From contig NZ_REEZ01000010.1 in NCBI RefSeq assembly GCF_003990445.1, positions 99,303 to 163,302 of the forward strand: a stretch of DNA of 64,000 bases, read 5' to 3'. The DNA comes from Pararhodobacter zhoushanensis. GTDB lineage: Bacteria; Pseudomonadota; Alphaproteobacteria; Rhodobacterales; Rhodobacteraceae. The notes beneath the pieces were generated by a model. That model was not told where the DNA came from. It was given only the letters and a program-made list of their open reading frames with translations, and made no database searches. Below, piece by piece: positions 21,616-55,270 of the stretch (within the stretch, counting starts at the first letter, position 1; each line of letters opens with the position of its first letter). Made by a program: the position numbers and the translations under genes.

Positions 21616-21679
21616 GGGCCACCTTTACCGGGCTGCGCGTCGCCGCCTGCGACTGAAAACAAATCCCGGGGCTTTTCTG

Positions 21680-32232: not shown

Positions 32233-33066
32233 ATGTCCCATATCGTTACAATCGGCGACATCGCCATCGGCGGATCGAACCCTTTCGCGCTGCTCGCCGG
32301 ACCCTGCCAGCTGGAAAGTCTGGACCACGCGCGCGCCATGTGCGCCGGGATACTCGAGGCCTGCGCCCCGACCGGAACCAAGCTGATCTTCAAGGCCAGC
32401 TATGACAAGGCGAACCGCTCGTCCATCGGCACCGAGCGCGGGCTGGGGATGGACGCGGGGCTGGAAATTCTGGCCAAGATCCGCGACGAATTCGGCGTGC
32501 CGGTTGTCACCGACGTGCACGAGCCGTGGCAGTGCGAAAAAGCCGCACAGGCCGTTGACGTGCTGCAAATCCCCGCCTTCCTGTGCCGCCAGACCGATCT
32601 GCTGCTGGCCGCCGGTGAGACGGGCAAGGCGATCAACGTCAAGAAGGGCCAGTTTCTGGCCCCCTGGGACATGCGCCACGTCGCCGCCAAGATCGAAAGC
32701 ACCGGCAACCGCAACATCATGCTGTGCGACCGGGGCACCTCGTTCGGGTACAACACGCTGGTGACGGATTTCCGGGGCCTGCCGACCATGGCGCAGACCG
32801 GCTATCCGGTGGTTTTTGACGCCACCCATTCGGTGCAGCAGCCCGGCGGACAGGGCGCAACCTCGGGCGGGCAGCGCGAATTCGTGCCGGTGCTGGCCCG
32901 TGCCGCCTGCGCCGTGGGCATCTCGGCGCTGTTCATCGAGACGCATGAAGACCCCGACAACGCCCCCTCGGACGGCCCCAACATGGTGCCGCTGGACCAG
33001 ATGAAGGCCCTGATCGGCCGGTTGCGCGCCTATGATGCGCTGACCAAGGAGAACTTCGATGCGTGA
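32233..33066 (+). CDS. kdsA: 3-deoxy-8-phosphooctulonate synthase
   Basis: A 277-residue enzyme joining phosphoenolpyruvate and arabinose 5-phosphate to KDO 8-phosphate, for lipopolysaccharide or group 2 capsule linkers. Family motifs: [53 protein letters not shown] and [22 protein letters not shown] precedes the ATG. It overlaps kdsB by eight bases. Its position at the edge of the capsule region suggests it feeds capsule synthesis. Confidence 0.97.
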
Positions 33067-33871
33067 TGCTGTGATCGTCATACCGGCGCGCTATGCGTCG
33101 ACGCGCTATCCTGCGAAACCACTGGCCACGCTTAAAGGCGTCTCGGGCATCGAGCGCACGCTGCTGGAACGCTCGGTGATGGCCGCCCGCGCCGCCGCCG
33201 TGTCCACGCGCGGCGTGACCGGCCTGTTCGTTGCGACGGATGACGAGCGCATCGCGGCCGAGGCCAAGCGCGTGGGTGCCGAGGTCATCATGACCGACCC
33301 GGCCTGCGCCAATGGCACCGAGCGCGTTGCACAAGCCGTTGAGCGCGCCGGACTGGGCCAGCCGATCATCGTCAACCTGCAGGGCGACGCGCCGCTGACA
33401 CCGCCGCATTTCGTCTCGACCCTGATCAATGCGATGCGCGAGGATGAGACGCGCATGGTCGCGACGCCCGTTCTGCGCTGCGACCGCGAGTCGCTGGACA
33501 ATTTCCGCAACGACCGGCGGCTCGACCGCGTCGGGGCAACGACGGTGGTGCGCGACCTCAAGGGCAACGCGATCTATTTCTCGAAAGAGGTGATCCCCTT
33601 CACCGGCACGCTGAAGGCTGACGGTCCGATCCCGGTGTTCCACCATGTCGGCCTTTACGCCTATACGCCCGAAGCGCTGCGGCTTTACGCCAGCCTGACG
33701 CCTGGTGAGCTGGAACAGCTGGAAGGGCTGGAGCAACTGCGCTTCATCGAGCACGGACACAAGATCGCCGCCGTCGAGGTCAGCGCGCCGGGCGCGGCCT
33801 TCTGGGAGCTGAACAACCCGTCAGATGTGCCGTTGATCGAAGACTACCTACACCGGATGGGCATGGAGTAA
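33059..33871 (+). CDS. kdsB: 3-deoxy-manno-octulosonate cytidylyltransferase
   Basis: A 270-residue enzyme that activates KDO to CMP-KDO. The nucleotide-binding start [17 protein letters not shown], the segment [21 protein letters not shown] and the later [13 protein letters not shown] match the family. The substrate-side motif reads [10 protein letters not shown] where enterobacterial KdsB has SGTER, still within family variation. It is coupled to kdsA by an eight-base overlap. Confidence 0.95.
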
Positions 33872-33924: not shown

Positions 33925-35097
33925 ATGATGAGGCGCGGATTGGCTCAACAGCGTGAGTATCTGGTTGTCGGAGCAGGGCTTTCAGGCGCGGTTTTGGGCC
34001 GTGAGCTGGCAGAGGCCGGGCACCGGGTGCGCATCATCGAGGCGCGCAACCACATCGCCGGGAATTGCCATACCGAACGCGACGCTGAAACCGGCGTTCT
34101 GGTCCATGTCTATGGCCCGCATATCTTTCACACCAACGATGCCGAGGTGTGGGAATACGTGTCGCGGTTCGAGCAGTTCCGCCCCTACAAGAACCGCGTG
34201 AAGGCGCAGACCGGTGGGCGGGTGTTTTCACTGCCGATGAACCTGCTGACCATCAACCAGTTCTTCGGCAAGACCCTGCGCCCCGACGACGCCCGCGCCT
34301 TTGTCGAAACACAGGCGGATCTCAGCATTACCGATCCGCAAAGCTTTGAAGATCAGGCGCTGCGCTTTGTCGGACCCGCGCTGTATGAAGCCTTCTTCAA
34401 GGGCTATACCCAAAAGCAATGGGGCTGCCACCCGCGCGAACTGCCCGCCTCGATCCTCAAGCGCCTGCCGGTTCGCTTCAACTATAACGACGACTATTTC
34501 GCACACCGGTTTCAGGGCATCCCCGAAGGCGGCTACACCGCGATGGTTGCGCGCATGCTGGATCATCCGGGGATCACCGTGACGCTCAACACGCCCTATG
34601 AACCGGCGATGGCCGACACGGTCGACCATGTCTTCTGGTCCGGCCCGCTGGATGGCTGGTTCGGCTATGACATCGGGCGGCTGGGCTACCGCACGCTGGA
34701 TTTCGAGCGTTTCACCGCGCCGGGCGACTGGCAGGGTTGCGCCGTGATGAACTATTGCGACGCGGATGTGCCGTGGACGCGGATCACCGAGCACAAGCAT
34801 TTCGCGCCGTGGGAAACGCATGAAGGATCGGTCCTGTACCGCGAGTTTTCGCGCGCCGCCGCGCCGGGGGATACGCCGTTCTATCCGATTCGGATGGTCG
34901 AAGAGAAAGCCTTGCTGGGCCAATACACCGCGCGCGCGCAGGCTGAGCGTGGGGTAACCTTCATGGGGCGGCTGGGCACGTATCGTTATCTCGATATGGA
35001 TGTGACCATCCGCGAAGCGCTGGACGCGGCGCGGGGCGTCCTGACATGCCTCAACCAAGACACGAGGATTCCGGCGTTTTTCAGTCAACCGGCCTGA
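33925..35097 (+). CDS. glf: UDP-galactopyranose mutase
   Basis: A 390-residue flavoenzyme converting UDP-galactopyranose to UDP-galactofuranose, the donor for galactofuranose in surface glycans. The FAD site is YLVVGAGLSGAVLGRELAEA with acidic RIIEARNHIAGNC. Further family motifs are VYGPHIFHTND, FSLPMNLLTINQFFG, GYTQKQWG and the active-site region RFNYNDDYF. The end SRPA-type tail is short. Start is the first of two adjacent ATGs at 33925; the ribosome site is weak. Confidence 0.96.
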   Translation: MMRRGLAQQREYLVVGAGLSGAVLGRELAEAGHRVRIIEARNHIAGNCHTERDAETGVLVHVYGPHIFHTNDAEVWEYVSRFEQFRPYKNRVKAQTGGRVFSLPMNLLTINQFFGKTLRPDDARAFVETQADLSITDPQSFEDQALRFVGPALYEAFFKGYTQKQWGCHPRELPASILKRLPVRFNYNDDYFAHRFQGIPEGGYTAMVARMLDHPGITVTLNTPYEPAMADTVDHVFWSGPLDGWFGYDIGRLGYRTLDFERFTAPGDWQGCAVMNYCDADVPWTRITEHKHFAPWETHEGSVLYREFSRAAAPGDTPFYPIRMVEEKALLGQYTARAQAERGVTFMGRLGTYRYLDMDVTIREALDAARGVLTCLNQDTRIPAFFSQPA

Positions 35098-39963: not shown

Positions 39964-40154
39964 GATGACACCCTTAATCCACCGGGGACCAGCCTGCCGC
40001 GACCGCATGGCACCCGGCGCCCGAGATTACGGCGAAATCATGGCGTTCATTTTGCATTCGACTCGATTTGCGCCGGGACTTTGGGCCGTCCGTACGGCAG
40101 GATTTGACAGCATCGGCCCGGCGGCCTAGCTGGGCTGCGGCGAAGGGGAACAGG

Positions 40155-41149: not shown

Positions 41150-41977
41150 TCAGCGGTTGAGCAGATAGAGGTGATGCTTGCGCAGCAGCATCAGACCCAC
41201 GACCAGCGGAATCAGTGAAAAGAGCACCACATAGGTGACCGAAATGTAGTTGGGCTGATACGTGGAATAGAACGCCTCGCGCATCATGCCGGTGATGTGA
41301 ATGAGCGGATTATACCACATATAGCCCTGCGCTTCGCTGGGCAGATCCTCGTACAGCAGAATGACGCCCGAAATGATCATCAGGGGCGCTGACATGATGC
41401 CCCAGATATTCGACCAGATCACGACGCGCTCGAACAGGTAGCAGTTCAGCACACCGATGCCGAACCCAAGCAGCGCCGACAGCGCCATCGACAGGATGGC
41501 CATCGGCCAGTCAATGATCAGCGTCAGGCCTTCGTAGAGGATGATCCCGGTCAGGATCAAAACCGTTACCGCAACGGTAACCAGTGTGTTCAGGATCAGC
41601 CGCGCCAGCACGGCATCCATCCAGGTCACGCCGGGGTAGGAAAGCAAGGCCTTGGAATAGCTCAGACTTTTCGCGATCATGCCCGAGTTGCTTCTGAACA
41701 TGGTGAAGGGCATGATCCCCGTCGCCTTGAAGAAGATAAAGCTGGTCCCCAAGGATGGTGACCGGGCGATCAGCGAAAACGCCAAACCCAGAATGATGAT
41801 CGTCGCCAGCGGCTGCATGATGGCCCAGGCAAAGCCACCGGGTGTGCGGCCAAAGCGTGTCGTCATCTCGCGCAGGACCAGTGCTGTAATCGTCCGCACC
41901 GACCGGAAATTGCGTGACAACGCCACGTCCGGGATGCGCCCGGCTGGCAGACGTGGCCCTGAAATGTCGCTCGCCAC
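41150..41977 (-). CDS. kpsM: ABC-2 type polysaccharide export permease (KpsM-like)
   Basis: A 275-residue inner-membrane permease with six predicted helices. The N-terminus reads TITALVLREMTTRFGRTPGG, a hallmark of the KpsM/Wzm family just before the first helix, followed by FAWAIMQPLATIIILGLAF. It ends RKHHLYLLNR. It pairs with the KpsT ATPase to export group 2-type capsule chains. The gene is divergent from kpsE-kpsT across an 81-base region, rather than in the usual kpsM-kpsT order. Confidence 0.93.
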   Translation of the reverse strand: MASDISGPRLPAGRIPDVALSRNFRSVRTITALVLREMTTRFGRTPGGFAWAIMQPLATIIILGLAFSLIARSPSLGTSFIFFKATGIMPFTMFRSNSGMIAKSLSYSKALLSYPGVTWMDAVLARLILNTLVTVAVTVLILTGIILYEGLTLIIDWPMAILSMALSALLGFGIGVLNCYLFERVVIWSNIWGIMSAPLMIISGVILLYEDLPSEAQGYMWYNPLIHITGMMREAFYSTYQPNYISVTYVVLFSLIPLVVGLMLLRKHHLYLLNR

Positions 41978-42058
41978 CTGTACGTCCTTTTTCTGGCCTT
42001 TGGCGCGGGGACTATGTAGAAATCACGCCGACAAGGCAAATAACCTTTGGAGAGCCGC

Positions 42059-43354
42059 GTGAACGACGACACACCCGCAAGGGGCAAGCGGCAACTGGAC
42101 CCCGGCAACCCTCAACTGGCGCGACAAGCGGAACGACAGGCGGCGCGCAAGGCCCGCGCTGCCTCGGCGCTTTCGGGGGACAATGACACGGACCAGAGCG
42201 AGCCTGCCGCCGAAATGCGGGTGCGCCCCGTCGCCGCGCCCGCCCGGATCCGGCGGCGCCATCGGGGGCTCTTTTTGTCGTTCGTCATGATGGTGATCCT
42301 GCCGGTCACGCTGGCAACGGCCTATCTGTACGTTCTGGCGCATGACCAATACGCCTCAACCACCGGCTTCACCGTGCGCAGCGACGATTCCGCGTCGGCA
42401 TCGGAAATGCTGGGGGGATTGAGCGCGATCGTCGGCGGCGGCTCGTCGTCGAATACCCATGTTCTGTATGCCTATATCAAGAGCCAGCAACTGGTCGAAC
42501 GCGTGCAGGAACAGGTCGACATTCGGTCGCTCTATTCGCAAAACTGGGACTCGGATCCGCTGTTTTCCCTGTGGCCCGATGCCACCATCGAAGATCTGCT
42601 GTGGTTCTGGCAACGGATGGTTATCATCTCGTATGACATGAACTCGGGCCTGATGGATGTTCAGGTCAAAGCGCATACCGCCGAAATGGCGCAGCGGATC
42701 GCGCGGATCATCGTCAGCGAGAGCGAACAGATGATCAACGCGCTGAACGAACAGGCGCGCTCGGACGCGATGTCCAACGCCGAGTCCGATCTTGAGGCCG
42801 CTCTGGCGCGCCTGCGCAGCGCGCGTGAAGACATCGCCAGTTTTCGCGCCCGCACGCAGATTGTCGACCCGCAGGCCGATATCGCCGGACGGATGGGCGT
42901 GATCAACGGGCTGCAGGAGTCGCTGGCGACGGCGCTCGTTGACTATGACCTGCTGTTGCAGACCACCGCGGAAAGCGACCCGCGCGTGCGTCAGGCCGAG
43001 CGCCGCATCGAAGTGATCCGCCAGCGCATCGGCGAAGAACGGCGCAACTTTGCCACACAGGACGTGACTGTCTTTGATACCGATTATCCGCGTCTGATCG
43101 CCCAGTTTGAAAGCCTGACGGTGAATCAGGAATTCGCCGAGCGTACCTATACCGCCGCTCTGACCGCGCTGGACGCCGCACGGTCGACCGCCCAGCGCCA
43201 GAGCCTGTATCTGGCAACCTATGTGCAACCGACACTGGCGCAGCGGGCAGAGTATCCTCAGCGGGCACTTCTGGTGCTCCTGACGCTGATCTTTGCCGGG
43301 CTCATCTGGTCGGCTTTGGCGCTTATCTACTACAGCCTTCGCGACCGGGGTTAA
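42059..43354 (+). CDS. kpsE: Capsule polysaccharide export inner-membrane protein (KpsE-like)
   Basis: A 431-residue polysaccharide co-polymerase of the KpsE/BexC (PCP-3) type. A basic, Arg-rich cytoplasmic tail (1-75) leads to helix one (LFLSFVMMVILPVTLATAYL). The periplasmic domain starts YASTTGFTVRSDD and contains a coiled-coil-like stretch (about 240-340). The final helix is LLVLLTLIFAGLIWSALALIYY. GGAGAG at 42049-42054 supports the GTG start at 42059. It is first in the operon with kpsT, 15 bases downstream. The outer-membrane partner KpsD is not in the window. Confidence 0.9.
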   Translation: MNDDTPARGKRQLDPGNPQLARQAERQAARKARAASALSGDNDTDQSEPAAEMRVRPVAAPARIRRRHRGLFLSFVMMVILPVTLATAYLYVLAHDQYASTTGFTVRSDDSASASEMLGGLSAIVGGGSSSNTHVLYAYIKSQQLVERVQEQVDIRSLYSQNWDSDPLFSLWPDATIEDLLWFWQRMVIISYDMNSGLMDVQVKAHTAEMAQRIARIIVSESEQMINALNEQARSDAMSNAESDLEAALARLRSAREDIASFRARTQIVDPQADIAGRMGVINGLQESLATALVDYDLLLQTTAESDPRVRQAERRIEVIRQRIGEERRNFATQDVTVFDTDYPRLIAQFESLTVNQEFAERTYTAALTALDAARSTAQRQSLYLATYVQPTLAQRAEYPQRALLVLLTLIFAGLIWSALALIYYSLRDRG

Positions 43355-43369
43355 CAAGGCGGCGACCCG

Positions 43370-44041
43370 ATGATCCAGTTCGACCACCTGACAAAGGGAT
43401 TTTGGGTCCGCGGCGAATATTCGCCCGTGATCCGAAATCTCAACCTGACGTTGCCGACGGGCAAGTCTCTGGCGCTGTTGGGCGGCAACGGCGCGGGCAA
43501 ATCCACCCTGCTCGAGCTGATCGCCGGCACCATGCAGCCGGACCGTGGCGGCGTGTGGAGCGACGGCAGCATCTCATGGCCAGTCGGCTTTGGCGGCAGC
43601 TTTCACCGCGACCTGACCGGCGCGCAGAATACCCGGTTTCTGGCCCGGGTGTATGGCGTTGATACCGACGAGCTGATGGACTTTGTGCAGGACTTCGCTG
43701 AGATCGGACGTCACTTTCACATGCCGCTGCGCACGTATTCTTCGGGCATGCGATCGCGCCTGACCTTTGGCATCTCGATGGGCATCCCGTTCGACACCTA
43801 TCTTGTCGACGAAGTGACCGCCGTCGGCGACCAGCGGTTCCGCAGCAAAAGTCAGGCGCTGTTTCGCGACCGGATGAAGCGATCCAGTGCTATATTGGTG
43901 AACCACAACCTCGAAGAGCTGCGCTCGTTCTGCGATGCCGCCATCGTGCTTGAGAACGGCACGCTTGCCTATTTCAACGACCTCGACGAAGCCGTAGAGC
44001 AGCACAAGCGGAACATGGCCGCGCCCTTGAACAATGCCTGA
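43370..44041 (+). CDS. kpsT: Polysaccharide export ABC ATPase (KpsT-like)
   Basis: A 223-residue ATPase that powers KpsM. Walker A is GGNGAGKST, the signature YSSGMRSRL, Walker B YLVDEVTAVGD, and the H-loop VNHNLEEL. This shortened signature is characteristic of the KpsT/Wzt group. It lacks the C-terminal carbohydrate-binding domain of Wzt, which fits a capsule rather than an O-antigen exporter. The stop region overlaps a possible upstream start of the next gene. Confidence 0.95.
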   Translation: MIQFDHLTKGFWVRGEYSPVIRNLNLTLPTGKSLALLGGNGAGKSTLLELIAGTMQPDRGGVWSDGSISWPVGFGGSFHRDLTGAQNTRFLARVYGVDTDELMDFVQDFAEIGRHFHMPLRTYSSGMRSRLTFGISMGIPFDTYLVDEVTAVGDQRFRSKSQALFRDRMKRSSAILVNHNLEELRSFCDAAIVLENGTLAYFNDLDEAVEQHKRNMAAPLNNA

Positions 44042-44063
44042 CCGGAGCGAAGCAACGGGACCG

Positions 44064-45176
44064 ATGAGCACCGCACGCGAACTGATCCTGCATATCGGTC
44101 ATTACAAGACCGGGACAACGGCGCTGCAGGTTTTTCTGGAAAGCAACCGCGCGCTGCTGGCGCAGCAAGGGCTGAACTACGCCGACGCACCGGTCAAGTT
44201 TTCCAAGCATTCGGCGCTGGCGTTTTCGTTGCTGCGGGCGGCGGGCGTGACCGAGCTGATGCATGACTTTCGCAACAAGCACTCCGCGCAGGAGTTGTGG
44301 CAACAGCTGTTCACCGCCACCCGTGCCCTGCCCGAAGGCGCGTCGATGCTGGTCTCCTCGGAAGAATTCATCCGTCTGGGTGCCCATCCCGCCGCTGCCG
44401 CGCTGCTGCGCGCACAGATCGACACCGCGCGCGATCTGCGTTTTCGGGTGGTCGTCTATCTTCGCCCCCCGCAAGAGCATCTGAAAAGCTGGTACAACCA
44501 ACTGGTCAAGATGGGCATCGATGTCGGCAGCTTTGACGCCGCCGTGCGCGCGCAGATGGAGGCGGTGCATTGGGATTACGCACTGGCGCTCAAGCCGTGG
44601 ATCGAGATCTTCGGCCCCGAGGCCATCGTACTGCGGAGCTTCGAGACATCGCTGCGTGTCGGCGACGGACTGTTTGAGGACTTTCTCGCCGGTCTGGGCC
44701 ATGGCCTGCCGCTGGCGGCGGTTACCGGCTCTCGTGATCCCAATCCGCGCATGGATGACCGCCTTCTGGGCATTCGCCGGGCGCTCAACCGCTCCGGCCT
44801 GTCGGCGGACATGGCCCGGCAGGTTATGGACCGCGCCCAATCCAGTCTGGACGCCGAGGCCGCGAGCGATGCCCTGACCGATGCACCCGGTTTCGACACC
44901 ATCCGCCAGCGTGCCGAAGACGCTATCGCTGCGCTGGCCGCCTTGCCCGGGGCGGAGGGGCTGGATGCAACGGTGCTGCGCGCCGCCCTGCCCGCGCCGC
45001 AGGACGCAACCGAACGACAGCTGGAACAGACGGTCGCTGTGCTGAGCTTCGAACTGGCGCAGATGCGCACAATCCAGTTGCGGCAGGCCTTGAGGCTCAA
45101 CCTGCTGGAAAAGCGCCTGGACAAGGCAGAGGCCGCCGGCACCGGCGCCCCTGCGAAGCCGGACGACGAGGCGTGA
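44064..45176 (+). CDS. Sulfotransferase-like protein with C-terminal helical extension
   Basis: A 370-residue protein (380 if it starts at the ATG at 44034, which overlaps kpsT by eight bases). Its N-terminus ILHIGHYKTGTTALQVFLES matches the 5'-phosphosulfate loop of PAPS-dependent sulfotransferases. A later RFRVVVYLRPPQEHLKSWYN fits the 3'-phosphate-binding segment. The last 60 residues are coiled-coil-like (QLEQTVAVLSFELAQMR). It lies within the kpsE-kpsT operon, and the following gene overlaps it by four bases (GTGA). It is likely to act on the capsule; the acceptor is unknown. Confidence 0.78.
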   Translation: MSTARELILHIGHYKTGTTALQVFLESNRALLAQQGLNYADAPVKFSKHSALAFSLLRAAGVTELMHDFRNKHSAQELWQQLFTATRALPEGASMLVSSEEFIRLGAHPAAAALLRAQIDTARDLRFRVVVYLRPPQEHLKSWYNQLVKMGIDVGSFDAAVRAQMEAVHWDYALALKPWIEIFGPEAIVLRSFETSLRVGDGLFEDFLAGLGHGLPLAAVTGSRDPNPRMDDRLLGIRRALNRSGLSADMARQVMDRAQSSLDAEAASDALTDAPGFDTIRQRAEDAIAALAALPGAEGLDATVLRAALPAPQDATERQLEQTVAVLSFELAQMRTIQLRQALRLNLLEKRLDKAEAAGTGAPAKPDDEA

Positions 45177-46750
45177 GAGTTCTTTTTTACAACTGGGCCG
45201 ATCACCGTGACCCAGAGCAACGCGGCGGTGGCGTCAGCGTCTATCAGCGCAACATCATCAAGGGCTTGTCCAAGGTTGACGGCGTGGAAACCGCGTTCCT
45301 GTCCTCGGGACTTGCGCACACGCTGCTGCGGCGAAAGCCGCACGTCATCACGCTGGAGCGCGGCGAAAGCCCGCGTTATGCGCTGGTCAATTCGGGTCTG
45401 GTTGCCCCCTCTCATGCCGATTTCGCGGGCGTGGCACAGCTTGAGCACGCCGAAACCGAGGCCGCCTTTGCCGAATTCGTCGAGCGGACCGGCCCATGGG
45501 ATGTGATCCATTTCAACAACCTCGAAGGGCTGCCCGCCAATGTGCTCAGCCTGAAAAAGCGCTGGCCCGGCACCCGCTTCGTGCTGTCGCTGCACAACTA
45601 TTATCCGTTCTGTCCGCAAGTGAACCTGTGGTTCGCCGAGCGTGAGACCTGCACCGATTTTCACGGCGGCGCCAGTTGCACCCGATGCCTGCCCGCCCAG
45701 CCCGAGCCGCGCTCGATCCGGGCTGCCTATGCCATTGCCTGGTCCTTGTCGCGCTGGCGGCTGGGGCCGGGAACCGGTTTTTATGAACGGTTCTTTCGCC
45801 CGGTGATGGGCGCGGCATGGCGCGGCCTGCGCCGCGTCCTGCGCGCGCGCCACATGCGCCGCAATGCCGCGCTTGAGACGGCACTGGTCACGGTGGCAGA
45901 ACCTGCCGCCCTGTCGCCCGCCTCTGCCAATGTTCCCCCGATCGCCGCTGCCGGGACACATCACGCCCCCGCGGAACCGCGCCCGCAACCGCCTGCGGCT
46001 GCCGCCCCCTTGGCCGCAGCCTTTGCCCGCCGCCGCGCGCGGATGGTGGCGCTGATCAACGCCCATTGCGACTCGGTGCTGGCGGTGTCCGACCGGGTGC
46101 GCCAGATCGCGCTGACGTATGGTGTACATACCTCGCGGCTGAGCACGCTCTACATCGGCTCGGCCGAGGCGGGCGAATGGCACTACAGCCAACCGCGCCC
46201 GGCCTTTCTGCGCGCCGATGGCACGATCCGGCTGGCCTATCTGGGCTATATGCGGCGCGACAAGGGCTATCATTTCCTGATGCGCGCGCTGGCGTCGTTG
46301 CCCGAGACGCTGGCCAAGCGTGTTCATCTGACCGTCGCCGCCAAATCCGGCGATGCCGAAGCCATGGCGCTGCTGAACGCCCTGCGCGGTCATCTTGGGG
46401 CTGTGCAGCATAAGAACGGCTACACCCACGACACGCTGCCGACGCTGCTGGCCGATGTCGATCTGGGCGTGGTTCCGCCCGTGTGGGAGGACAACCTGCC
46501 ACAAGTCGCCATCGAAATGCACGCCCGCCATATCCCGCTGATCACCTCGGATCGTGGCGGCGCGCAGGAGCTGGGGCGCTGCAATGATCTGGTGTTCCGC
46601 GCCGATGACAGCGACTCGTTCCGTCACGTCCTTGAGCGGATCCTGGACGGCAGCACACTGCCCGCGCAGTATTGGGCCAATGCCATGGCACCCGTCGGCC
46701 TGCCCGAGCATATCGAGGCGCTGGTCAAGATCTACCGCGAGACGCCATGA
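45173..46750 (+). CDS. Glycosyltransferase family 4
   Basis: A 525-residue GT-B enzyme. The N-terminal domain reads VLFYNWADHRDPEQRGGGVS, with GPWDVIHFNNLEGLPANVL and FVLSLHNYYPFCPQVNLW. The C-terminal domain has IRLAYLGYMRRDKGYHFLM and VVPPVWEDNLPQVAIEMHA, carrying the E-x7-E-like region of GT4. Between the domains is an unusual Pro/Ala-rich insert (about 240-285) and a Cys pair in ASCTRCLP. It starts at a GTG overlapping the previous stop and overlaps the next gene by four bases, so the three are translated together. Confidence 0.9.
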   Translation: MRVLFYNWADHRDPEQRGGGVSVYQRNIIKGLSKVDGVETAFLSSGLAHTLLRRKPHVITLERGESPRYALVNSGLVAPSHADFAGVAQLEHAETEAAFAEFVERTGPWDVIHFNNLEGLPANVLSLKKRWPGTRFVLSLHNYYPFCPQVNLWFAERETCTDFHGGASCTRCLPAQPEPRSIRAAYAIAWSLSRWRLGPGTGFYERFFRPVMGAAWRGLRRVLRARHMRRNAALETALVTVAEPAALSPASANVPPIAAAGTHHAPAEPRPQPPAAAAPLAAAFARRRARMVALINAHCDSVLAVSDRVRQIALTYGVHTSRLSTLYIGSAEAGEWHYSQPRPAFLRADGTIRLAYLGYMRRDKGYHFLMRALASLPETLAKRVHLTVAAKSGDAEAMALLNALRGHLGAVQHKNGYTHDTLPTLLADVDLGVVPPVWEDNLPQVAIEMHARHIPLITSDRGGAQELGRCNDLVFRADDSDSFRHVLERILDGSTLPAQYWANAMAPVGLPEHIEALVKIYRETP

Positions 46751-47718
46751 AAGCCATTATCCACATCGGCACGCAAAAGACCGGCACGACCACGATCCAG
46801 TCTTTTCTGAACCTGAACCGGTCTGCCCTGTCGTCGCAGGGGATCCGGTTCGAGCCCTTCACGCCGCGCAACATCGCGCAGATGGAGCTGGGCCTTGCCG
46901 CCATCGTGCGCGCCGGGGACACATTGGACGTGATGGGCAAGCGCCACGCAATCGGGGTGCGGGGCCGGGAAAGTCAGGCCGCCTTTGTCGACCGGCTTGA
47001 GGCGCGGCTGCGCGCGGGCGTGGCGGAATGGCCCGAGCATACCTTTCTGGCCTCGAGCGAGCAGATCCATGCGTGGTGCTATAATCCGGCGCGGATCACG
47101 GCGCTGCACACGTTTCTGAGCGGCATTTTCGACGACGTCCGCTATGTCGTCTATTACCGCAGTCAGGAAGACTTCATGCTCTCGACCTATTCCGAGAACA
47201 TCCGCCGCGGTGAGATGCTGACGCTCGATGAACATATCGACGACATGATCGGCAAGATGAACTTCAACCGCCGGGTGCGGATGTGGAGCGATGTTGTCGG
47301 GCGCGACAACCTCACGGTGCGTCTGTTCGATCCGGCGCTGATGCCGAACCGCGACCTGCTTGATGACTTCTGTGCCCAGACCGGCGTGAACCGCGCGCCG
47401 CTTCAAACCCCGCCGCGCAAGAATGAATCGCTGAGCGTCGAAGAGATCGCGCTGTACCGCGACCTGAACCGCCGGATTCCGATGATGCTGCGCAACGGCG
47501 CGGCGAACCCGCTGTTCTTTCTGCTGGTCCGCCTGATGCGCCGTCGCCTGCCGCAGCCCGGCACACGCGTGCAACTGAGCGAGGCCCAGCGCGCCCGCAT
47601 CCACGCCCAGAATGCCGAGAGCAACGAACTGCTGCGCCAACGCCACTTCCCCGAACTGCCAACGCTGTTTGGCCCGCGTCAGGCCCCGGCGCAGACCCTG
47701 CGCACGAACTCGGACTGA
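46747..47718 (+). CDS. Sulfotransferase-like protein
   Basis: A 323-residue protein. It opens MKAIIHIGTQKTGTTTIQSF, the 5'-phosphosulfate-binding loop, and later has VRYVVYYRSQEDFMLSTYSE in the place of the 3'-phosphate-binding motif. The C-terminus is Arg-rich. The start overlaps the GT4 stop (ATGA). The last 40 bases overlap the 3' end of the convergent 1377-residue gene, so both C-termini are encoded by the same DNA. A capsule-sulfating role is inferred from context. Confidence 0.78.
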   Translation: MKAIIHIGTQKTGTTTIQSFLNLNRSALSSQGIRFEPFTPRNIAQMELGLAAIVRAGDTLDVMGKRHAIGVRGRESQAAFVDRLEARLRAGVAEWPEHTFLASSEQIHAWCYNPARITALHTFLSGIFDDVRYVVYYRSQEDFMLSTYSENIRRGEMLTLDEHIDDMIGKMNFNRRVRMWSDVVGRDNLTVRLFDPALMPNRDLLDDFCAQTGVNRAPLQTPPRKNESLSVEEIALYRDLNRRIPMMLRNGAANPLFFLLVRLMRRRLPQPGTRVQLSEAQRARIHAQNAESNELLRQRHFPELPTLFGPRQAPAQTLRTNSD

Positions 47719-50700
47719 TCCCACGGCACCGAGACCTCGGGATCATAGATCACGTCGCGTCCTTCAGACACCAGCGCCAGATACTTGCGGTATTCCTCGG
47801 CGTTGTTGAAATGCTGGCGGCGGGCAACTTCGGCCAGCGCTTTGGCGCGGAACGCCGCGTTGTATTTGAAATGCGCAAAGATCAGCGCGCGCCGCGCCAG
47901 CTTTGTGTCTGCCACAAAATGCAGCCCCGCCGACAGCCGCATCCACGGCCTGTATTTCAGCAACGCGATCTTTTGCGCGACGAACAACTCTGCGCGAGAG
48001 CCGGGCAGCAGCCGGTGACGCAACGCGCTGGTCCAGATCGGCGAATCCGAATACGGCCCGCGCGCGGCTGACGCGGCCAGAAACGGGTCGCGGTCCACGA
48101 AACCGGCCTGCGCAAAGGGCGTGTCGCTGACGAAATCGGCCTGCGCCAGCGAGCCTTGGGGATACATGTCCAGCATGAAGATCCGCGCCGCATCGGCCCC
48201 GGCGAAATCCTCGCTTTCAACCAGATCCGGCAGGTTGCCCGTCAGATCGGTGTTCCACAGCAACAACTCATCCGCATCCGCCATCAGCGACCATCGGCCT
48301 GAACGGAAGTTGGCCATCAGCGCCTGTTGCCACGCCACACCGTAATGCGACTGGTTGTAAGGGGTATCGACCGAAAACAGCGCCACATCAGGTTGCTCGG
48401 CCAGATACTCAAACGTTCCGTCATCCGAGCCGTTGTCGGCCATCAGGAACCCTTGCACACCCAGCGCCCGGTAGTGGTCGAAGAACCGGGGCAACATGAA
48501 CATCTCGTTGCGCAGACAGGCGACAACGGCGACCGGGGCCGCGTTCACCGCGCGCAACTGCGCATCCGACGAGATCAGATCCAGCGTGTTCGACCGCCCG
48601 CCCAGCCGCACCGGCTGAAAGCTGGGCCAGATCTTGGACGGGCGCGGCAAGGGGTCGGACAACCCGGCCAGCACCTCGGCCATGCGCTCGTGCCCGTCCA
48701 GATGCGCCAGTTTCACCCCACTGCCGGCGAACGGCAGAAAGCCGTTCTCCCACGCCGCGACCAAGGGCCCGCCCGGCTTGGTCCGCCGCAAGACGCTGAC
48801 CCGGTAGTCCGTGCCATCGACCCAGATATCACCTTTGGCCAGCAGATCGCCGACCAGCTTGTCCTCCATAAAGGACAGGTGGATCAGCTCTTGCCCCTCG
48901 GGACTGGCGGCAGCGGAAACCAGACGATCCATCGCGTGTCGTGACAAGGCATAGCCCGAGCCGCCATCGGCATAAACCGACGGTTCGGGTGACTTGTCCA
49001 GTTCAAGCCGCCCGCGCGCGCTGCGCGACTTGGGCATGTGCCAGCTGCGGTCCATCTGACCACGCACACGCGTCAGACGGCGGCCATAATAGTCCACCCC
49101 CCGATGCGCCAGATCCCCGAACCATGCCGCCGGGTCCAGAAAGCAATCGTCATCGACCTTGACCAGATGCGCAAAGCGCGTGTGGTCACGCACCCAGCGC
49201 GCCATCGCCAGCGACTTTTGCGGCAGGCCTTCATAATCGTCGGGCGCGTCCAGATAGACCACATCTCCGTCCCGCCGCCCGTCGCCGCCACCGACAAAGA
49301 TCAGCGCAGGCACGCCCATCCCGGCGAGCAGCGGCAACCACGTTTCGCGGATTGTCTGCACGCGGGTGCTCAGGTTGGGCTGGCAGGAATACAGGCACAA
49401 AAGCGTATCCTGCACCGGATCCGCCTGCGCCCAGAGATCGGCGGTGCGATCGTCGCGCGGCTCCGACAGGTCCGGCCCCAACAGCGGGTCAAGCACGGCG
49501 GCGATCCGCGTCACCGCCGGGTGTGCACCCTGCGCGTGCAGCAGGCTTTGCAGCGCCTGTCGCGGCGCGGCCTGCGTCGCCAGAGCCGCCCGTTCATCGT
49601 GTTTGGCCAGCGTTTCCGCCAGCGCCTCTACCCGCTCAAGCAGCGCCTGCGCCTCGGCGGTGCGCTCTTGCGCCAGCAGACCACGCGCCAGCGACAAGCC
49701 CAGAGTCAGGCCGAGAAAATTGGCATAAGCGCCACCAAGAGGGACCAACCGGTTCAGAACCTGCGCCAGATGCGCCGGCTCGGAGGGGTCAGCCAGCATC
49801 GCACTAGCTGCGGATCGCAGAGCGCTTTTCAAGCGGCCAAAGGGCGAGCGCGTCACATCGGGATTCGCCGTGAGCAAGCCCTGACGGGCCAGAACCAGCG
49901 TCGCCGGGTCGCGCGGCAGCGCCGCCCTGGGAAAAGCGAGCCCCCGTAACGCCGCTTCGCTCGGATCAAGCCCCTCGACCAAGGCTGCCAGCGCCTCGGC
50001 CGTGTCATCCTCAGCCACACCGCCCGCGCCGAACAGGTCGCGGCGATACCGGGCCAGATCACAGGCTCCAAATTGGCGGAAGAGGTTCAGCGCCTGATTC
50101 AACACAACGCGCCCTTCGGGCGTGGTCTGGGCATCCGCCTCGATCAGCGCGTTGATCTGCGAAAAGGCCGATTGCACGGTTGCCAGCTCTGAAGGCAGGC
50201 TCCAGCCGTCCCGGGCCTGCGCGTCACGGACCAACGCCCAGAAAGCCCGGCTAAGAGCGTACACATGACCGGTTACCCTGATCGCGCGTTCACGCAGCCA
50301 TGCAGGCAGCGTCTCAGAGGCCGCCAGAACAGCGATCATACCCTGCATCAGGCTCTTGCAACTGACCCTGTCCCAATATTCTGCCGACCGGCTCTCCAGC
50401 AGGTCCAACGCCGCATTGATTATGTAATCGCGCCCGTTGTCCAACGGCAGGCGACCCTGCAAATCAGGAGCCGAGACCGCTGCTTGCTCAAGCACCCAGC
50501 CCACTGCCGGTGTCGATATCCATCCGGGCCTTGGGGGCGCCAGCCGCCAGATTGACGTCGAAACCTTGTCGAACCGACCTTCCTCATAATCATACGGAAG
50601 CAGAATAGACGTCGTCCACAGGTCGTCCTCGCTGGCCGGTTCCGGCGGAGGCAGTGCCAGTTCACGGCGCAACGCCATCAAATCGCGAACGCGGTCATGC

Positions 50701-51812
50701 AGGCAGAACCATTCGGTCACCCGCGTGATCAGCGCAGCGCGTAGCGGGCCGGAGTGTGGCAGGGCCGCAAGCTCGGCGCGCAGCAGGGCGAGCGGGTCAC
50801 TGTCAGGCGCGCCACGCATCTGCGCGCCGAAGCGATCGGCGATCAGGGGCGTCGGGTCATCCGGTTCCTCGGATGGCGGCATCAGCACCGTCTCCGCCGC
50901 GCCCTCGGCGCGCCCCTCGGCCAGATAGCGGCTCAGCCCGAACAGGTCCGCAGCTGCGCCCAGCGCCGCGCGCGCCTTTGGCGTGAGCTGTGCCAGCACG
51001 CCTGCGTGGCGCGCGTGTTCGATCGCCTGCAAGGCTGCCCGGTCATCCAGAGCAAAGCCGCCCGACTGCGCCAGCGCCTCGATCCGGGCGGCGACCTGCG
51101 CACGCTCCAGCGTGAAGCTGCCCAGCGCGCGCCCGTTGGCATCGCTCAGGGCCAGGTCCAGCGCCTCGGCCCCGCCGTCCCAGACGCGGCCGGGCAGGAC
51201 AGCCGCCAGCGCGTATTCCGGCTGACCGCTGCGCATCGGAAAGGGCAGTCTGCGCAAGACGGCGGGAATATCCTCGGGGAAACCGGAAACGCGCAGGGTT
51301 CCGGCAGCGGTATGGGTGGCGGGCAGCCCGCGCAGAAGAACCTCGAACGCCTCGCTCAGATGCACGCCCGGCTGCGCATCGGCGCTGCGTTTGAGCTCGA
51401 CAAGGCGCACACTGTCCTGAGCCAGCGCACCAGCGGTTTCCACCCACGCGATCTGCTTCAGCGCGGGAAAGCCCCGACGCAGAAACAGCCGCCCGTTCCG
51501 GTCAGGCCGGGGCAGCGCATCAAAAATACCCACCAGTGTGTGGTCGACCCTGACCTCGACACGCCCGGCCGAAAAATGCAGATCAACGCTCAGGGGCCGC
51601 GGGGCAAACCGCCACGGCAGCCTCACCTCACGCCGCCACCCCGCCGCATCGCGGCGGTTGACCACGATCAGCTTTTCCGAGGCCCGGATCGACAGGTGAA
51701 ACGGAATCGTCTGGCGTTGTTCGTCATAGAAGTTGAGGTTCAGGACCGCTGCCATCGAAAAATCAGCGAAACACTGAAACCGGGCACCTTGAGCGGTTCG
51801 GAACGGGAACAT
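47679..51812 (-). CDS. Galectin-like / GT31-like / second glycosyltransferase fusion protein
   Basis: A 1377-residue protein with three recognisable parts. Residues 1 to about 130 look like a galectin carbohydrate-recognition domain: FHLSIR (His39, Arg43) and IVVNRRDAAGWRREVR, giving Asn52, Trp59, Glu62 and Arg64 at the same spacing as the galactoside-binding residues of galectin-1. Residues 150-790 are mostly helical and unassigned. Residues 800-1050 fit GT31 galactosyltransferases: VQTIRETW (818-825), HLVKVDDDCFL (DDD 887-889), GGSGYALS and MEDKLVGD. Residues 1094-1377 form another GT-A domain (VVACLRNEMFMLPRFFDHYR; DADEL 1179-1183), like GT92/GT2-type enzymes. There is no signal peptide. 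It is in tandem with the GT2 gene upstream. Confidence 0.85.
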   Translation of the reverse strand: MFPFRTAQGARFQCFADFSMAAVLNLNFYDEQRQTIPFHLSIRASEKLIVVNRRDAAGWRREVRLPWRFAPRPLSVDLHFSAGRVEVRVDHTLVGIFDALPRPDRNGRLFLRRGFPALKQIAWVETAGALAQDSVRLVELKRSADAQPGVHLSEAFEVLLRGLPATHTAAGTLRVSGFPEDIPAVLRRLPFPMRSGQPEYALAAVLPGRVWDGGAEALDLALSDANGRALGSFTLERAQVAARIEALAQSGGFALDDRAALQAIEHARHAGVLAQLTPKARAALGAAADLFGLSRYLAEGRAEGAAETVLMPPSEEPDDPTPLIADRFGAQMRGAPDSDPLALLRAELAALPHSGPLRAALITRVTEWFCLHDRVRDLMALRRELALPPPEPASEDDLWTTSILLPYDYEEGRFDKVSTSIWRLAPPRPGWISTPAVGWVLEQAAVSAPDLQGRLPLDNGRDYIINAALDLLESRSAEYWDRVSCKSLMQGMIAVLAASETLPAWLRERAIRVTGHVYALSRAFWALVRDAQARDGWSLPSELATVQSAFSQINALIEADAQTTPEGRVVLNQALNLFRQFGACDLARYRRDLFGAGGVAEDDTAEALAALVEGLDPSEAALRGLAFPRAALPRDPATLVLARQGLLTANPDVTRSPFGRLKSALRSAASAMLADPSEPAHLAQVLNRLVPLGGAYANFLGLTLGLSLARGLLAQERTAEAQALLERVEALAETLAKHDERAALATQAAPRQALQSLLHAQGAHPAVTRIAAVLDPLLGPDLSEPRDDRTADLWAQADPVQDTLLCLYSCQPNLSTRVQTIRETWLPLLAGMGVPALIFVGGGDGRRDGDVVYLDAPDDYEGLPQKSLAMARWVRDHTRFAHLVKVDDDCFLDPAAWFGDLAHRGVDYYGRRLTRVRGQMDRSWHMPKSRSARGRLELDKSPEPSVYADGGSGYALSRHAMDRLVSAAASPEGQELIHLSFMEDKLVGDLLAKGDIWVDGTDYRVSVLRRTKPGGPLVAAWENGFLPFAGSGVKLAHLDGHERMAEVLAGLSDPLPRPSKIWPSFQPVRLGGRSNTLDLISSDAQLRAVNAAPVAVVACLRNEMFMLPRFFDHYRALGVQGFLMADNGSDDGTFEYLAEQPDVALFSVDTPYNQSHYGVAWQQALMANFRSGRWSLMADADELLLWNTDLTGNLPDLVESEDFAGADAARIFMLDMYPQGSLAQADFVSDTPFAQAGFVDRDPFLAASAARGPYSDSPIWTSALRHRLLPGSRAELFVAQKIALLKYRPWMRLSAGLHFVADTKLARRALIFAHFKYNAAFRAKALAEVARRQHFNNAEEYRKYLALVSEGRDVIYDPEVSVPWDQSEFVRRVCAGA

Positions 51813-51883: not shown

Positions 51884-53674
51884 TCACCGGGCGCGGCGAA
51901 AGAGCCGCAGAGCTGCGTGCACCCAGCGCGGCGTTTCAGGGTCGGCGCGGACATCCTGCTCAGCGGATAGCCATCGTGCGAACAGGGCAAGGGCCAGCGC
52001 CAGCGGCCACCGCAAGACACCCCTGCCCCGGCGCAAACGCACCAGCCGCAAAAACAACACCCCCCGCCAGCCACGCGGCAGCGCGGGCTCGCCGGGGAAC
52101 GCGGCGATCTGGCGGCGGGCGCGCAGCAAGCCCGGCACCGCGACGGGGCGATCCGGAGCGCCCGCGACTGCCAGCCGTGTATAGCCCGCCTTGTGCGCTA
52201 CCAGAGCGCTGGACAGGACCACGGCCTGCACGGCGGCAATGCCCGCCGGGACACGCAGATCCGGTTGCATTCCGGCCAACAGATCGCGCCGGATCACGCG
52301 GTTCGCCAGTAAAGGATACAAGAACAGCGCCGGGCGCGCGCCCAGCGGGATCAGGCCGCCGTGCACTGGCAGCGCATCCAGATCAGTCGCGACCCGCGTG
52401 TTGTCGGTCCAACCGTCGTGATAGCCCAGCGTTGCGCGCTCAAACCCGCCCATCGCCAGCCGAGCCTTGCTGGCCTCGCCAAGATTGACCAGCCGCATCG
52501 CGCCGTCGGGCAACAGTGTCTCGCCCGCACCGAGCAGCAGCACCCAGCGGCCTTGCAGCGCTTCGGCAAGCGCGGCCAGCGTCACCGGCGCTTCCAGATG
52601 CTGCACCGGCAGGTCCGGTGGCAGCCCGGCAGGCAGCGTGCGGCCCACCACCACAAGCTCGAAATCCGCCATTGTCTGCGCCAGCACGCCCGGCAGGGCG
52701 GCCTGCGCGTCCCCCAACAGGACCACCGACAGCGGTATCTCTCCGGCCAGCGCCAATCCCAGACCCCGGCTGATCTCAGGATCCCAGTCTGGCGACCAGA
52801 GCACCCCCAGCCGTTCGAACAACGCCACAACGCCGGTCAGAAACTGCGCGCGCCGCCTGCGGTCGCGCAGCGCCAGCGCGCGTTCGTGAACCAGCCGCGT
52901 TGCCAGCCGGGCGTAGCCCTCATGCGGGTTGGACATGCCGCTGGCCATGATCAACGGGTACAGGCGATCCAGCACCCTGAGTTGCTCGAACACCCGGTCG
53001 CTGTCGGCACCGGTGATCTGACCCATCCGCTCGCGACGGTGGCGGTACAGCGGCTCGGGCACATAGGCCAGCGCCGGCGCCCGCGCGGCAAGTGCCCAGA
53101 ACACCTCGTGATCCTCGAACCAGCTGCCCTCGGGATAGGCCAGCCCGTCGAACAGTGCCCGGCGATAGAGCTTGTTCCACGCCGACGGGAACTGGCGCGC
53201 AACCTCTCGGGCATCGGTAAGCGCGATGGTCCGCGCCGTTTCCGGCCCGGTGCTGGCGTGGATCGCCGGATGCATGCGCGCGCTTTCGTCGGGATAGGTC
53301 AGCAACACGGCGCAGGCGGCCCAGTCGGTGCCCTCACGCTCGATCGCGGCGTGCAGGTCGGCCAGAAAACGCGGCTCAAACGCGTCGTCACCGTCCAGAA
53401 ACGCGACAAACGCCCCACGCGCCAGCGCCAGCCCGGCGTTGCGCGCGCCGGAAAGCCCGCGATTGGCCTGACGAATGAAGCGAAACCGCGCATCGCCGGC
53501 CACCGCGGTCTCGGCCACCGCGCCCGACCCGTCGGTCGAGCCGTCGTCGATCACGATCACTTCGAAATCGGTCAGCGTCTGGCCCAGCAGACTGGCCATG
53601 GCCGCGCCGATCTGCTCCGCGACGTCGAACACCGGCACGATGACCGAAATCAGAGGAGAAGCGGTGCCATTCAT
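51884..53674 (-). CDS. GT2 glycosyltransferase with a second, degenerate GT-A unit
   Basis: A 596-residue protein. Residues 1 to about 230 are a standard GT2 domain: LISVIVPVFDVAEQIGAAM, FEVIVIDDGSTDGSG, GLSGARNAGLALARG, and the metal site FVAFLDGDDAFEP; SWFEDHEVFW supplies the catalytic acid region. From about 315 a second unit repeats the plan (LSVVLLGDAQAALPGVLAQT, FELVVVGRTLP, WVLLLGAGETLLPDGAM). There the DXD site is replaced by GAGET, so it is probably non-catalytic. A C-terminal hydrophobic Arg-rich segment suggests membrane contact. It lies 71 bases upstream of the galectin-GT31 gene on the same strand. Confidence 0.88.
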   Translation of the reverse strand: MNGTASPLISVIVPVFDVAEQIGAAMASLLGQTLTDFEVIVIDDGSTDGSGAVAETAVAGDARFRFIRQANRGLSGARNAGLALARGAFVAFLDGDDAFEPRFLADLHAAIEREGTDWAACAVLLTYPDESARMHPAIHASTGPETARTIALTDAREVARQFPSAWNKLYRRALFDGLAYPEGSWFEDHEVFWALAARAPALAYVPEPLYRHRRERMGQITGADSDRVFEQLRVLDRLYPLIMASGMSNPHEGYARLATRLVHERALALRDRRRRAQFLTGVVALFERLGVLWSPDWDPEISRGLGLALAGEIPLSVVLLGDAQAALPGVLAQTMADFELVVVGRTLPAGLPPDLPVQHLEAPVTLAALAEALQGRWVLLLGAGETLLPDGAMRLVNLGEASKARLAMGGFERATLGYHDGWTDNTRVATDLDALPVHGGLIPLGARPALFLYPLLANRVIRRDLLAGMQPDLRVPAGIAAVQAVVLSSALVAHKAGYTRLAVAGAPDRPVAVPGLLRARRQIAAFPGEPALPRGWRGVLFLRLVRLRRGRGVLRWPLALALALFARWLSAEQDVRADPETPRWVHAALRLFRRAR

Positions 53675-53820: not shown

Positions 53821-54531
53821 GTGACAGAGTCCAAACCGAAACCGGCCGGGATCGAGGGGCACGTCTTCGTTGTCACCTATGGCCGGTCAGGCTCAACCTT
53901 GGTGCAGAACCTGCTCAACGCTATCCCCGGCTACTGCATCCGGGGCGAAAACAACAACACACTGGGACTGATGGCGCGCTCGTGGCACGAAGTGCAGGGC
54001 AACACCATTCTCAACAACCTCGCGCGCAACGGCGTCGAAACCTCGCCCGAGCATCCGTGGTATGGCGGCGAAAAGATCAACGCGAAGCGCTATGGCCGGT
54101 CGCTGGCTCAGGTGTTCTCGCGTGAAATCCTGTCGCCGCCGCCGGGCACCCGCGTCGCCGGGTTCAAGGAAATCCGCTGGGCCAACGAAGGCACGCCGCT
54201 GCCCATTTCGCTGAACTTTCTGGCCGGCTTCCTCAAGAACAGCCGCTTCATTTTCAACACGCGCGACCATGACGAGGTGGCGCGCTCGGGGTGGTGGGCC
54301 ACGATGGACCCGGACAAGGTCAAGGCCCGGCTGGCCAAGGCCGAAGCCGCCTTTACGCAATACCGGACGCGCCATCCTGAGCGGTGCCTGCACATTCATT
54401 ACAACGACTACGTCAGCGATCACACCAAGCTGAAGCCGATGTTCGATTTCCTTGGCGAGCCGTTTGATCTTGACCGTGTCGACGCGGTGATGAGCCGCGA
54501 ACTGACGCATCTGAAAGAAGACGACGCATGA
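53821..54531 (+). CDS. Sulfotransferase family protein
   Basis: A 236-residue protein with a P-loop-like phosphosulfate site, VVTYGRSGSTLVQNLLNAIP. The later segment FKEIRWANEG precedes FLKNSRFIFNTRDHDEVARSG, matching the 3'-phosphate-binding Arg/Ser motif of PAPS sulfotransferases. It starts at GTG 53821, just across a 146-base divergent region from the GT2 gene. This is a different subtype from the two HIG.KTGTT-type genes in the kps operon. The substrate is unknown. Confidence 0.82.
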   Translation: MTESKPKPAGIEGHVFVVTYGRSGSTLVQNLLNAIPGYCIRGENNNTLGLMARSWHEVQGNTILNNLARNGVETSPEHPWYGGEKINAKRYGRSLAQVFSREILSPPPGTRVAGFKEIRWANEGTPLPISLNFLAGFLKNSRFIFNTRDHDEVARSGWWATMDPDKVKARLAKAEAAFTQYRTRHPERCLHIHYNDYVSDHTKLKPMFDFLGEPFDLDRVDAVMSRELTHLKEDDA

Positions 54532-54613
54532 TCCCGGCCCGGACTGCCATGCGGTTCGGTCCGGTTACCCAGATCGCCCGCGCGATCCGTCTTTGCAAAG
54601 CAGGAACACGACC

Positions 54614-55270
54614 ATGCCGTTGATCATCCGCCGAAAGAATCTGGCCTATTTCTCGGTTCCCAAGGTCGCCTGCACGTCGATCAAGAACATGCTGCACGAA
54701 ATGAAGACCGGCGAGCCCTTCAAGCCGTGGACCCGGCCGAACGGCAAGACCGTTTTCGTACACAACCTTTACAGCTCGATCCATTTTGACGAGCTGCCGC
54801 ATGAAGAGCTGGCGCCGCTGCACAAGATCACCATCATCCGGGATCCGATCACCCGCTTCCTGTCGGCCTATTCCAACCGCGTCGTTCACCACCGCGAGCT
54901 GTCCAAGGAAAAATGCGGTGGCAAACTGGCCAAGGCCGATCTGCCGCCCGATCCGGATCTCAGCCTGTTCATTGACCGGTTCGAAGACTACGTGCGGACG
55001 GTGCCCGTCATCAATCACCACACGCTGCCGATGGTGACGTTTCTGGGAACCGATCCGGGCTACTTCAGCCGGGTTTATGATTTTTCGGAACTCAAACAGC
55101 TTGAGACCGACATGCAGGCGCTGACCGAAACCACCGTGCCCCTGCCGCGACTGCAGACCGGTGGACCGAAGCTGCGCAAAGAAGACCTGACCCCGGCCCA
55201 GATCGACCGCCTCAACGCCTATTACGCCGCCGATTACGCGACCTTTGGCGATATCCTGCAACCGACCTGA
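54614..55270 (+). CDS. Sulfotransferase family 2-like (carbohydrate) protein
   Basis: A 218-residue protein similar in pattern to Sulfotransfer_2 (HNK-1/chondroitin-type carbohydrate sulfotransferases). YFSVPKVACTSIKNML is the 5'-phosphosulfate site, KITIIRDPITRFLSAYSNRV the 3'-phosphate site. The chosen ATG at 54614 follows CAGGAACACGACC. It is 82 bases downstream of another sulfotransferase and is the last gene of the polysaccharide region; the gene beyond is convergent. This family often sulfates sugars, which fits the capsule context. Confidence 0.83.
   Translation: MPLIIRRKNLAYFSVPKVACTSIKNMLHEMKTGEPFKPWTRPNGKTVFVHNLYSSIHFDELPHEELAPLHKITIIRDPITRFLSAYSNRVVHHRELSKEKCGGKLAKADLPPDPDLSLFIDRFEDYVRTVPVINHHTLPMVTFLGTDPGYFSRVYDFSELKQLETDMQALTETTVPLPRLQTGGPKLRKEDLTPAQIDRLNAYYAADYATFGDILQPT

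Follow-up and report, generated by a model that had tools for sequence, protein, structure and literature searches.

What does a galectin, a sugar-gripping domain best known from animals, do on a bacterial glycosyltransferase? The question is raised by one gene in a stretch of 64,000 nucleotides of the Pararhodobacter zhoushanensis genome (4.83 Mb in 56 contigs), referred to here as the window. An earlier note, made from the letters alone, had read the open reading frame (ORF) at 47679-51812 on the minus strand as a galectin-like domain joined to a GT31-type glycosyltransferase and a second transferase. The frame stands as given, with an ATG start and a product of 1377 amino acids (aa). The long insert between galectin and GT31, the partner GT2 gene, the sulfotransferase and export genes and the further bacterial galectin fusions described below go beyond that note. 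The N-terminal domain of this product looks like a genuine galectin, judged by profile matches and by a predicted beta-sandwich fold, and its ligand positions, rather than its core, are the most conserved part of the domain. On balance we lean slightly towards the view that the window protein is a soluble, multi-domain capsule glycosyltransferase or polymerase whose galectin would hold the growing chain.

Domain architecture of the window protein

The protein consists of consecutive parts with the following coordinates.

47679..51812, minus strand: galectin-GT31-GT2 gene (galectin, beta domain/alpha-solenoid, GT31, GT2), 1377 aa, ATG start, intact ORF
51399..51812, minus strand: galectin domain, residues 1-138 (Pfam, profile against PDB, AlphaFold2, Foldseek, conservation)
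49443..51365, minus strand: small beta domain (about residues 150-236), then an all-alpha solenoid (about 237-790) (AlphaFold2)
48588..49430, minus strand: GT31 domain, residues 795-1075, with DDD at 887-889 and MED (xED) at 982-984 (Pfam, profile, motifs)
47682..48587, minus strand: GT2 (PF13704) domain, residues 1076-1377, with DxDE at 1179-1182 (Pfam, motifs)

The pairing of GT31 with a second transferase, as proposed from the sequence, is borne out by Pfam: PF01762 (GT31) matches residues 847-996 (E=5.5e-8, 33.3 bits, exceeding the cut-off of 23), and the second transferase is a GT2 (PF13704, residues 1101-1196, E=2.1e-22). The galectin family PF00337 matches residues 22-97 (E=1.3e-4) with 21.8 bits against a gathering score of 22.1; the six-frame genome search yields 26.6 bits for the galectin stretch of the gene, above the PF00337 cut-off. 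Among 15 aligned members including the window protein, PF01762 and PF13704 are found in all 15 and PF00337 in 12 (E<=0.1). No NCBIfam model matches the window protein at E<=0.001, and no strong membrane segment shows up in a simple Kyte-Doolittle scan, made without a dedicated predictor (hydropathy over 19 residues at most 1.59).

Relatives of the protein were collected by scanning genome contigs with two peptide patterns, one each from GT31 and GT2, which gave 158 stretches and 109 relatives. The counts below rest on the 80 best of these relatives and leave out the 29 weaker ones. The GT31 motifs KxDDDC and ED[K/Q]xxGD are present in 80 of 80 relatives, the GT2 motif DxDE in 79 and DNxSDD in 75. 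A 53-row GT31 profile, compared with the PDB at E<=0.01, matches only beta-1,3-galactosyltransferase 6 (B3GALT6, 5.2e-9) and 5 (B3GALT5, 1.5e-6), with alignments that cover the DDD region. These two GT31 enzymes differ from the window domain, which is bacterial, has no clear anchor and is fused to other transferases. A catalytic role of the GT31 DxD and xED motifs is stated in the passages on them in PMC7185993. By its sequence, the GT31 domain of the window protein has both motifs intact, and the GT2 domain its DxDE.

Between galectin and GT31 lies a gap of about 640-650 residues. AlphaFold2 predicts a small beta domain followed by a long all-alpha solenoid (residues 137-792, pLDDT 91.2). This region has no Foldseek match in the PDB at E<=0.001; the best 50 rows are solenoid-type or other large helical proteins (query TM 0.10-0.19), and we assign the region no function.

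The galectin domain and its sugar site

Profiles of the N-terminal domain retrieve galectins from the PDB, with a best E of 1.2e-9 for 15 members and of 2.4e-18 for 66 rows, the top match of the latter being 4hl0, titled 'galectin'. AlphaFold2, given 66 sequences, predicts an almost all-beta galectin part (pLDDT 95.5, pTM 0.88). The model has 321 Foldseek matches in the PDB at E<=0.001 (best E=1.9e-8), the best 50 of which are all titled as galectin-family proteins (query TM 0.61-0.74, identity 13-21%). The earlier note had staked its reading on a galectin beta-sandwich, and since this is the fold that AlphaFold2 and Foldseek return, the reading is not refuted. A chance motif match as the source of the galectin signature is ruled out by the profile, fold and conservation tests.

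The contact set of galectins reads HxNxR...N...WxxExR, and the window protein carries the signature residues at the positions that had been named for it. Conservation was counted in 74 rows (73 relatives and the window protein), one of which, L091, is a fragment without the first three positions. His39 is found in 72 rows, Ser41 in 71, Arg43 in 71, Asn52 in 74, Trp59 in 74 and Glu62 in 72, in a domain whose mean identity among relatives is only 33%. When the 137 positions are ranked on 72 rows, duplicates and the fragment being left out, these six residues take ranks 1, 2, 3, 5, 6 and 7 (ranks 4-7 tied; hypergeometric P=8.5e-10, assuming exchangeable positions). The claim that the set His39, Arg43, Asn52, Trp59, Glu62 and Arg64 is conserved therefore survives for the first five (71-74 of 74 rows) but not for Arg64 (11 of 74). 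Site losses occur in a few members (L072, L110, L089 and L103).

Ser41 takes the place of the Asn in HxNxR, which is the residue that faces it in galectin-1. In the profile alignment the first domain of 4hl0, which we take to be the Toxascaris leonina galectin, likewise reads HxSxR, and a title among the Foldseek matches records a glucose-bound mutant of the Toxascaris leonina galectin in the PDB.

A phage origin of the domain was also considered. A tblastn search of 50,697 phage records with the window galectin domain is empty at E<=0.001, which is weak evidence because remote galectins could escape detection.

Co-occurrence of galectin, GT31 and GT2 among relatives

GT31 and GT2 domains are found in 80 of 80 relatives, and 7 of the 80 have no galectin match. 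Five of these seven frames start at a contig end (L050, L090, L105, L107 and L114), which leaves two true absences, L115 (Falsirhodobacter) and L121 (Marinobacterium), with GT31-GT2 kept. The survey of homologues that the earlier note had called for thus finds both domains together in 73 of 75 judgeable relatives. The peptide patterns exclude the galectin part, but the candidates were confirmed and ranked by the whole protein; given this ranking and the omission of the 29 weaker relatives, the galectin share could be somewhat lower among those 29. One metagenome-assembled genome (SP161) supplies two identical copies (L053 and L117), and both are counted in the figures of 80.

By their titles, nearly all relatives belong to Rhodobacterales; Methylobacterium, Bordetella petrii and Marinobacterium appear in the title of one record each. 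Among 18 genomes of the same genus, G008 and G015 have no match and G016 has GT2-type matches only; a relative from a same-genus genome, L017, keeps GT31-GT2 with a different N-terminal domain. L017, L115 and L121 have no galectin, a degenerate one or another domain in its place, which makes them natural controls for its role. Distances between galectin domains correlate with those between GT31 domains (rho 0.43 in 71 loci, 0 of 500 permutations as high). At one locus (L082), a full family member is accompanied by a stand-alone ORF of 176 aa (3989-4516, minus strand) with a weak match to the galectin profile (E=3e-4) and no Pfam match at E<=0.1.

A capsule locus and a GT2 partner

The surroundings of the gene in the window are as follows.

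32233..33871, plus strand: kdsA and kdsB, synthesis and activation of 3-deoxy-D-manno-octulosonic acid (Kdo) (NCBIfam/Pfam)
33925..35097, plus strand: glf, UDP-galactopyranose mutase
41150..41977, minus strand: KpsM-like capsule ATP-binding cassette (ABC) permease (PF01061 above cut-off; NCBIfam KpsM E=1.4e-25, below curated cut-off)
42047..43354, plus strand: KpsE/BexC/CtrB-like export protein (TIGR01010 E=6.7e-68, below curated cut-off)
43370..44041, plus strand: polysaccharide-export-type ABC ATPase in KpsT position (teichoic-acid/galactan/Vi export ATPase models of NCBIfam, below cut-offs)
44034..45176, plus strand: sulfotransferase-like, weak (PF00685 E=0.025)
45173..46750, plus strand: GT4-type glycosyltransferase (homologue in 39 of 54 long relative loci)
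46747..47718, plus strand: sulfotransferase-like, weak (PF00685 E=0.015), in tail-to-tail overlap with the galectin gene
51884..53674, minus strand: partner GT2 gene, 596 aa, 71 bp upstream of the galectin gene and co-oriented (Pfam)
53821..54531, plus strand: sulfotransferase (PF13469)
54593..55270, plus strand: sulfotransferase (PF03567)

Judged by its sequence matches, the galectin gene sits in a kps-type capsule locus of the ABC-transporter class, with export homologues and Kdo genes in the window and PF05159 (KpsC/S family) proteins on another contig of the genome. The UDP-galactopyranose mutase that had been cited in support of galactose chemistry is indeed present in this capsule context, together with kps-like export genes and kdsAB. 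Homologues of the window genes were counted in 54 relative loci of at least 20 kb: kpsM is found in 31, kpsE in 32, kpsT in 32, the GT4 gene in 39, any of the four sulfotransferases in 29 and glf in 25; kdsA is near only 3.

In 24 of the 80 loci the partner GT2 forms the N-terminal part of a fusion with the galectin protein, in frames of about 1,860-2,060 codons (L116 is cut by the contig end); in 31 it is a separate gene within 1.5 kb. It was not found nearby in the remaining 25, in eight of which the available sequence ends less than 740 bp upstream. As Rosetta-stone evidence, the fusions speak for one complex of both proteins. In Tropicibacter oceani and in Sulfitobacter sp. D7, a single annotated coding sequence (CDS) on a plasmid begins about 670 codons before the match (a statement on its length, not on the identity of the added part), and in Thalassococcus sp. 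S3 a separate CDS annotated as 'glycosyltransferase family 2' lies ahead of the galectin-gene match. By eye, the second half of the partner resembles a second GT2 half without an obvious DxD, possibly a pseudo-enzyme half; the fused relative L064 has two GT2 stretches by Pfam.

Galectins on other bacterial proteins and in known systems

Within the bacterial family, 10 of 295 genomes have a PF00337 match at E<=0.01 (8 above cut-off); in the phylum 2 of 349 have one at E<=0.001, and none of the 14 control genomes has one in either search. Seven of the 11 places found in the family search carry the following domains of the galectin-GT31-GT2 family; the window genome has one galectin. In the class, a galectin profile (A3) matches in 3 of 385 genomes. 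GT31 is similarly sparse: in the family, PF01762 is found in 7 of 198 genomes, each time in a frame with the solenoid, GT31 and GT2 of the window family (PF00337 registers in six of these genomes, not in G157), and in the class in 2 of 337, one of them below cut-off. We disregard a galectin match in an open frame of 12,907 aa (L040, E=0.009), which is probably spurious.

Galectin-like domains are also found in other architectures. L039 (1-1851, minus strand; PF00337 E=0.004, below cut-off) and L041 (1390-3192, plus strand; E=0.006, below cut-off) combine such a domain with GT2, and glf lies close to L039 on the same contig. Two alphaproteobacterial proteins, L123 (1462-3324, plus strand) and L124 (1462-3282, plus strand), have clear PF00337 matches (7.5e-10 and 5.1e-8); the C-terminal part of L123 matches heparosan synthase B (3.3e-24) and KfiA (8.9e-16), and that of L124 looks similar by eye. 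L036 reaches 20.8 bits with PF00337, just below the cut-off, and has no glycosyltransferase match. Among the matches listed from the open-licence PMC literature, judged by title and abstract opening, none describes a bacterial galectin-glycosyltransferase.

Several known systems resemble the window protein in part. The plant GALT1-6 proteins, GT31 enzymes with a galectin domain of which GALT2-6 are hydroxyproline-O-galactosyltransferases, likewise have PF00337 followed by PF01762 in one chain, as laid out in passages of PMC4431829; for GALT5 these give the galectin at 194-392 and the GALT domain at 465-672 of 672 aa. The order galectin-then-GT31 is that of the window protein and of 73 of 75 judgeable relatives, in agreement with the plant parallel drawn in the earlier note. 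Plant GALTs are, however, predicted type II Golgi membrane proteins according to a passage of PMC4687291, and the passages on them name no second transferase. The window protein has no clear membrane anchor, an insert of about 640 residues, an added GT2 and a capsule locus around it; because of the lack of a clear anchor, the extra transferase and the other setting we do not file it in the plant GALT group. With animal and fungal galectins the window domain shares the galectin fold and the His/Arg/Asn/Trp/Glu signature; it differs in the Ser for Asn of HxNxR, in the unconserved last Arg and in being part of an enzyme. The hyaluronan and heparosan synthases of Pasteurella, bacterial dual-transferase capsule polymerases, also unite two or more glycosyltransferase domains in one capsule enzyme; they are not known to contain a galectin or a GT31 domain.

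Role of the galectin domain

In the arrangement that we propose, GT31 would attach a sugar, most likely galactose, through a beta linkage, and the other sugars of the repeat would come from the GT2 domain and the partner GT2. The galectin would grip beta-galactosides already in the growing chain, and the solenoid that carries it would keep the chain end at the active sites; the protein might then work as a processive or length-controlling capsule polymerase, and the sulfotransferases may decorate the chain before export. Mammalian polypeptide GalNAc-transferases carry a lectin domain, and by analogy with it the galectin would steer or retain the acceptor.

A number of observations weigh against this proposal. 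Ser41 is a fixed family feature in place of the expected Asn, and Arg64, though present in the window protein, ranks only 126 of 137 in conservation; the exchange in HxNxR and the unconserved last Arg together suggest that the specificity may differ from beta-galactosides. The GT31-GT2 distance correlation (0.76) is above that of galectin and GT31, and the lack of a recognisable galectin in L115, L121 and L017 implies that the domain is not strictly required. Finally, no glf was found in 29 of the 54 long loci and none of the sulfotransferases in 25 of the 54.

The site itself gives rise to the most serious alternative, namely that the galectin does bind sugar, with galactofuranose, glucose, N-acetylglucosamine or a sulfated sugar as its ligand. 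We consider this possible, if clearly less probable than the proposal above. It is suggested by the replacement of Asn by Ser (71 of 74 rows) and by the freedom of Arg64 to vary (11 of 74), fits the HxSxR of 4hl0 and the glucose-bound Toxascaris mutant, and would suit the nearby glf, a hint that the polymer contains galactofuranose. Against it, His, Arg, Asn, Trp and Glu, the other residues of the galactose-contact set, hardly vary. The bias of conservation towards ligand positions and away from the core makes it quite improbable that the domain has lost sugar binding and persists as a structural relic or as a module for dimerisation, even though some eukaryotic galectin-fold proteins do not bind lactose and site losses are seen in L072, L110, L089 and L103.

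The galectin might also bind the finished or exported chain, or another glycan of the cell, and so attach the enzyme to the export machinery or sense chain length, with no part in positioning the acceptor for catalysis. In favour are the neighbouring export genes, the distance of about 650 residues (beta domain and solenoid) between galectin and GT31, and the lack of the galectin in a few relatives in which both catalytic domains are retained. In the few other bacterial architectures found, however, galectin-like domains sit on glycosyltransferases (GT2 in L039 and L041, a heparosan-synthase-like part in L123), which points to a role in synthesis, with L036 as an exception, and we regard docking or length sensing as rather unlikely. 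The fusion of galectin to GT31 and GT2, to GT2 alone (L039 beside glf; L041) and to a heparosan-synthase/KfiA-like domain (L123) leads to a broader and more tentative idea, in which bacteria would have galectins of their own as a general acceptor-holding module of surface-polysaccharide glycosyltransferases. Chain holding could then be an old, perhaps ancestral, task of the galectin fold, with the plant galectin-GT31 enzymes as one instance.

With the same pairing as in plants and dozens of diverged relatives, the family lets one study in bacteria what a galectin does for such enzymes. Natural galectin-free versions and a measurable product, the capsule, would make the question directly testable. 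If our proposal of a chain-holding galectin is true, the window protein would represent a new kind of capsule polymerase and the family a source of bacterial galectins for glycobiology.

Plasmid islands and further loci

Eight plasmid records match the galectin gene. The match spans at least 80% of the query in four of them, 42% including GT31 in one from Palleronia, and the GT2 part only in three. In the plasmid records inspected, the gene is annotated as 'glycosyltransferase' or 'glycosyltransferase family 2 protein', nothing more specific. On the Tropicibacter oceani plasmid its neighbours are a set of export genes, a sulfotransferase gene and a dTDP-rhamnose operon. Capsule islands with sulfotransferases and export genes are seen on the Rhodobacterales plasmids L141 (NZ_CP124619.1), L142 (NZ_CP022305.1) and L143 (NZ_CP020698.1), one of them with a dTDP-rhamnose operon and another with a GDP-fucose pathway and glf.

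Next to the capsule genes of the window, an ORF of 931 aa (37213-40008, minus strand) has, by eye, glycine-aspartate repeats of the RTX type. Outside the kps cluster, a GT25-type (21347-22444, plus strand) and a GT2-type glycosyltransferase (20929-21615, plus strand) possibly belong to a second surface-polysaccharide locus.

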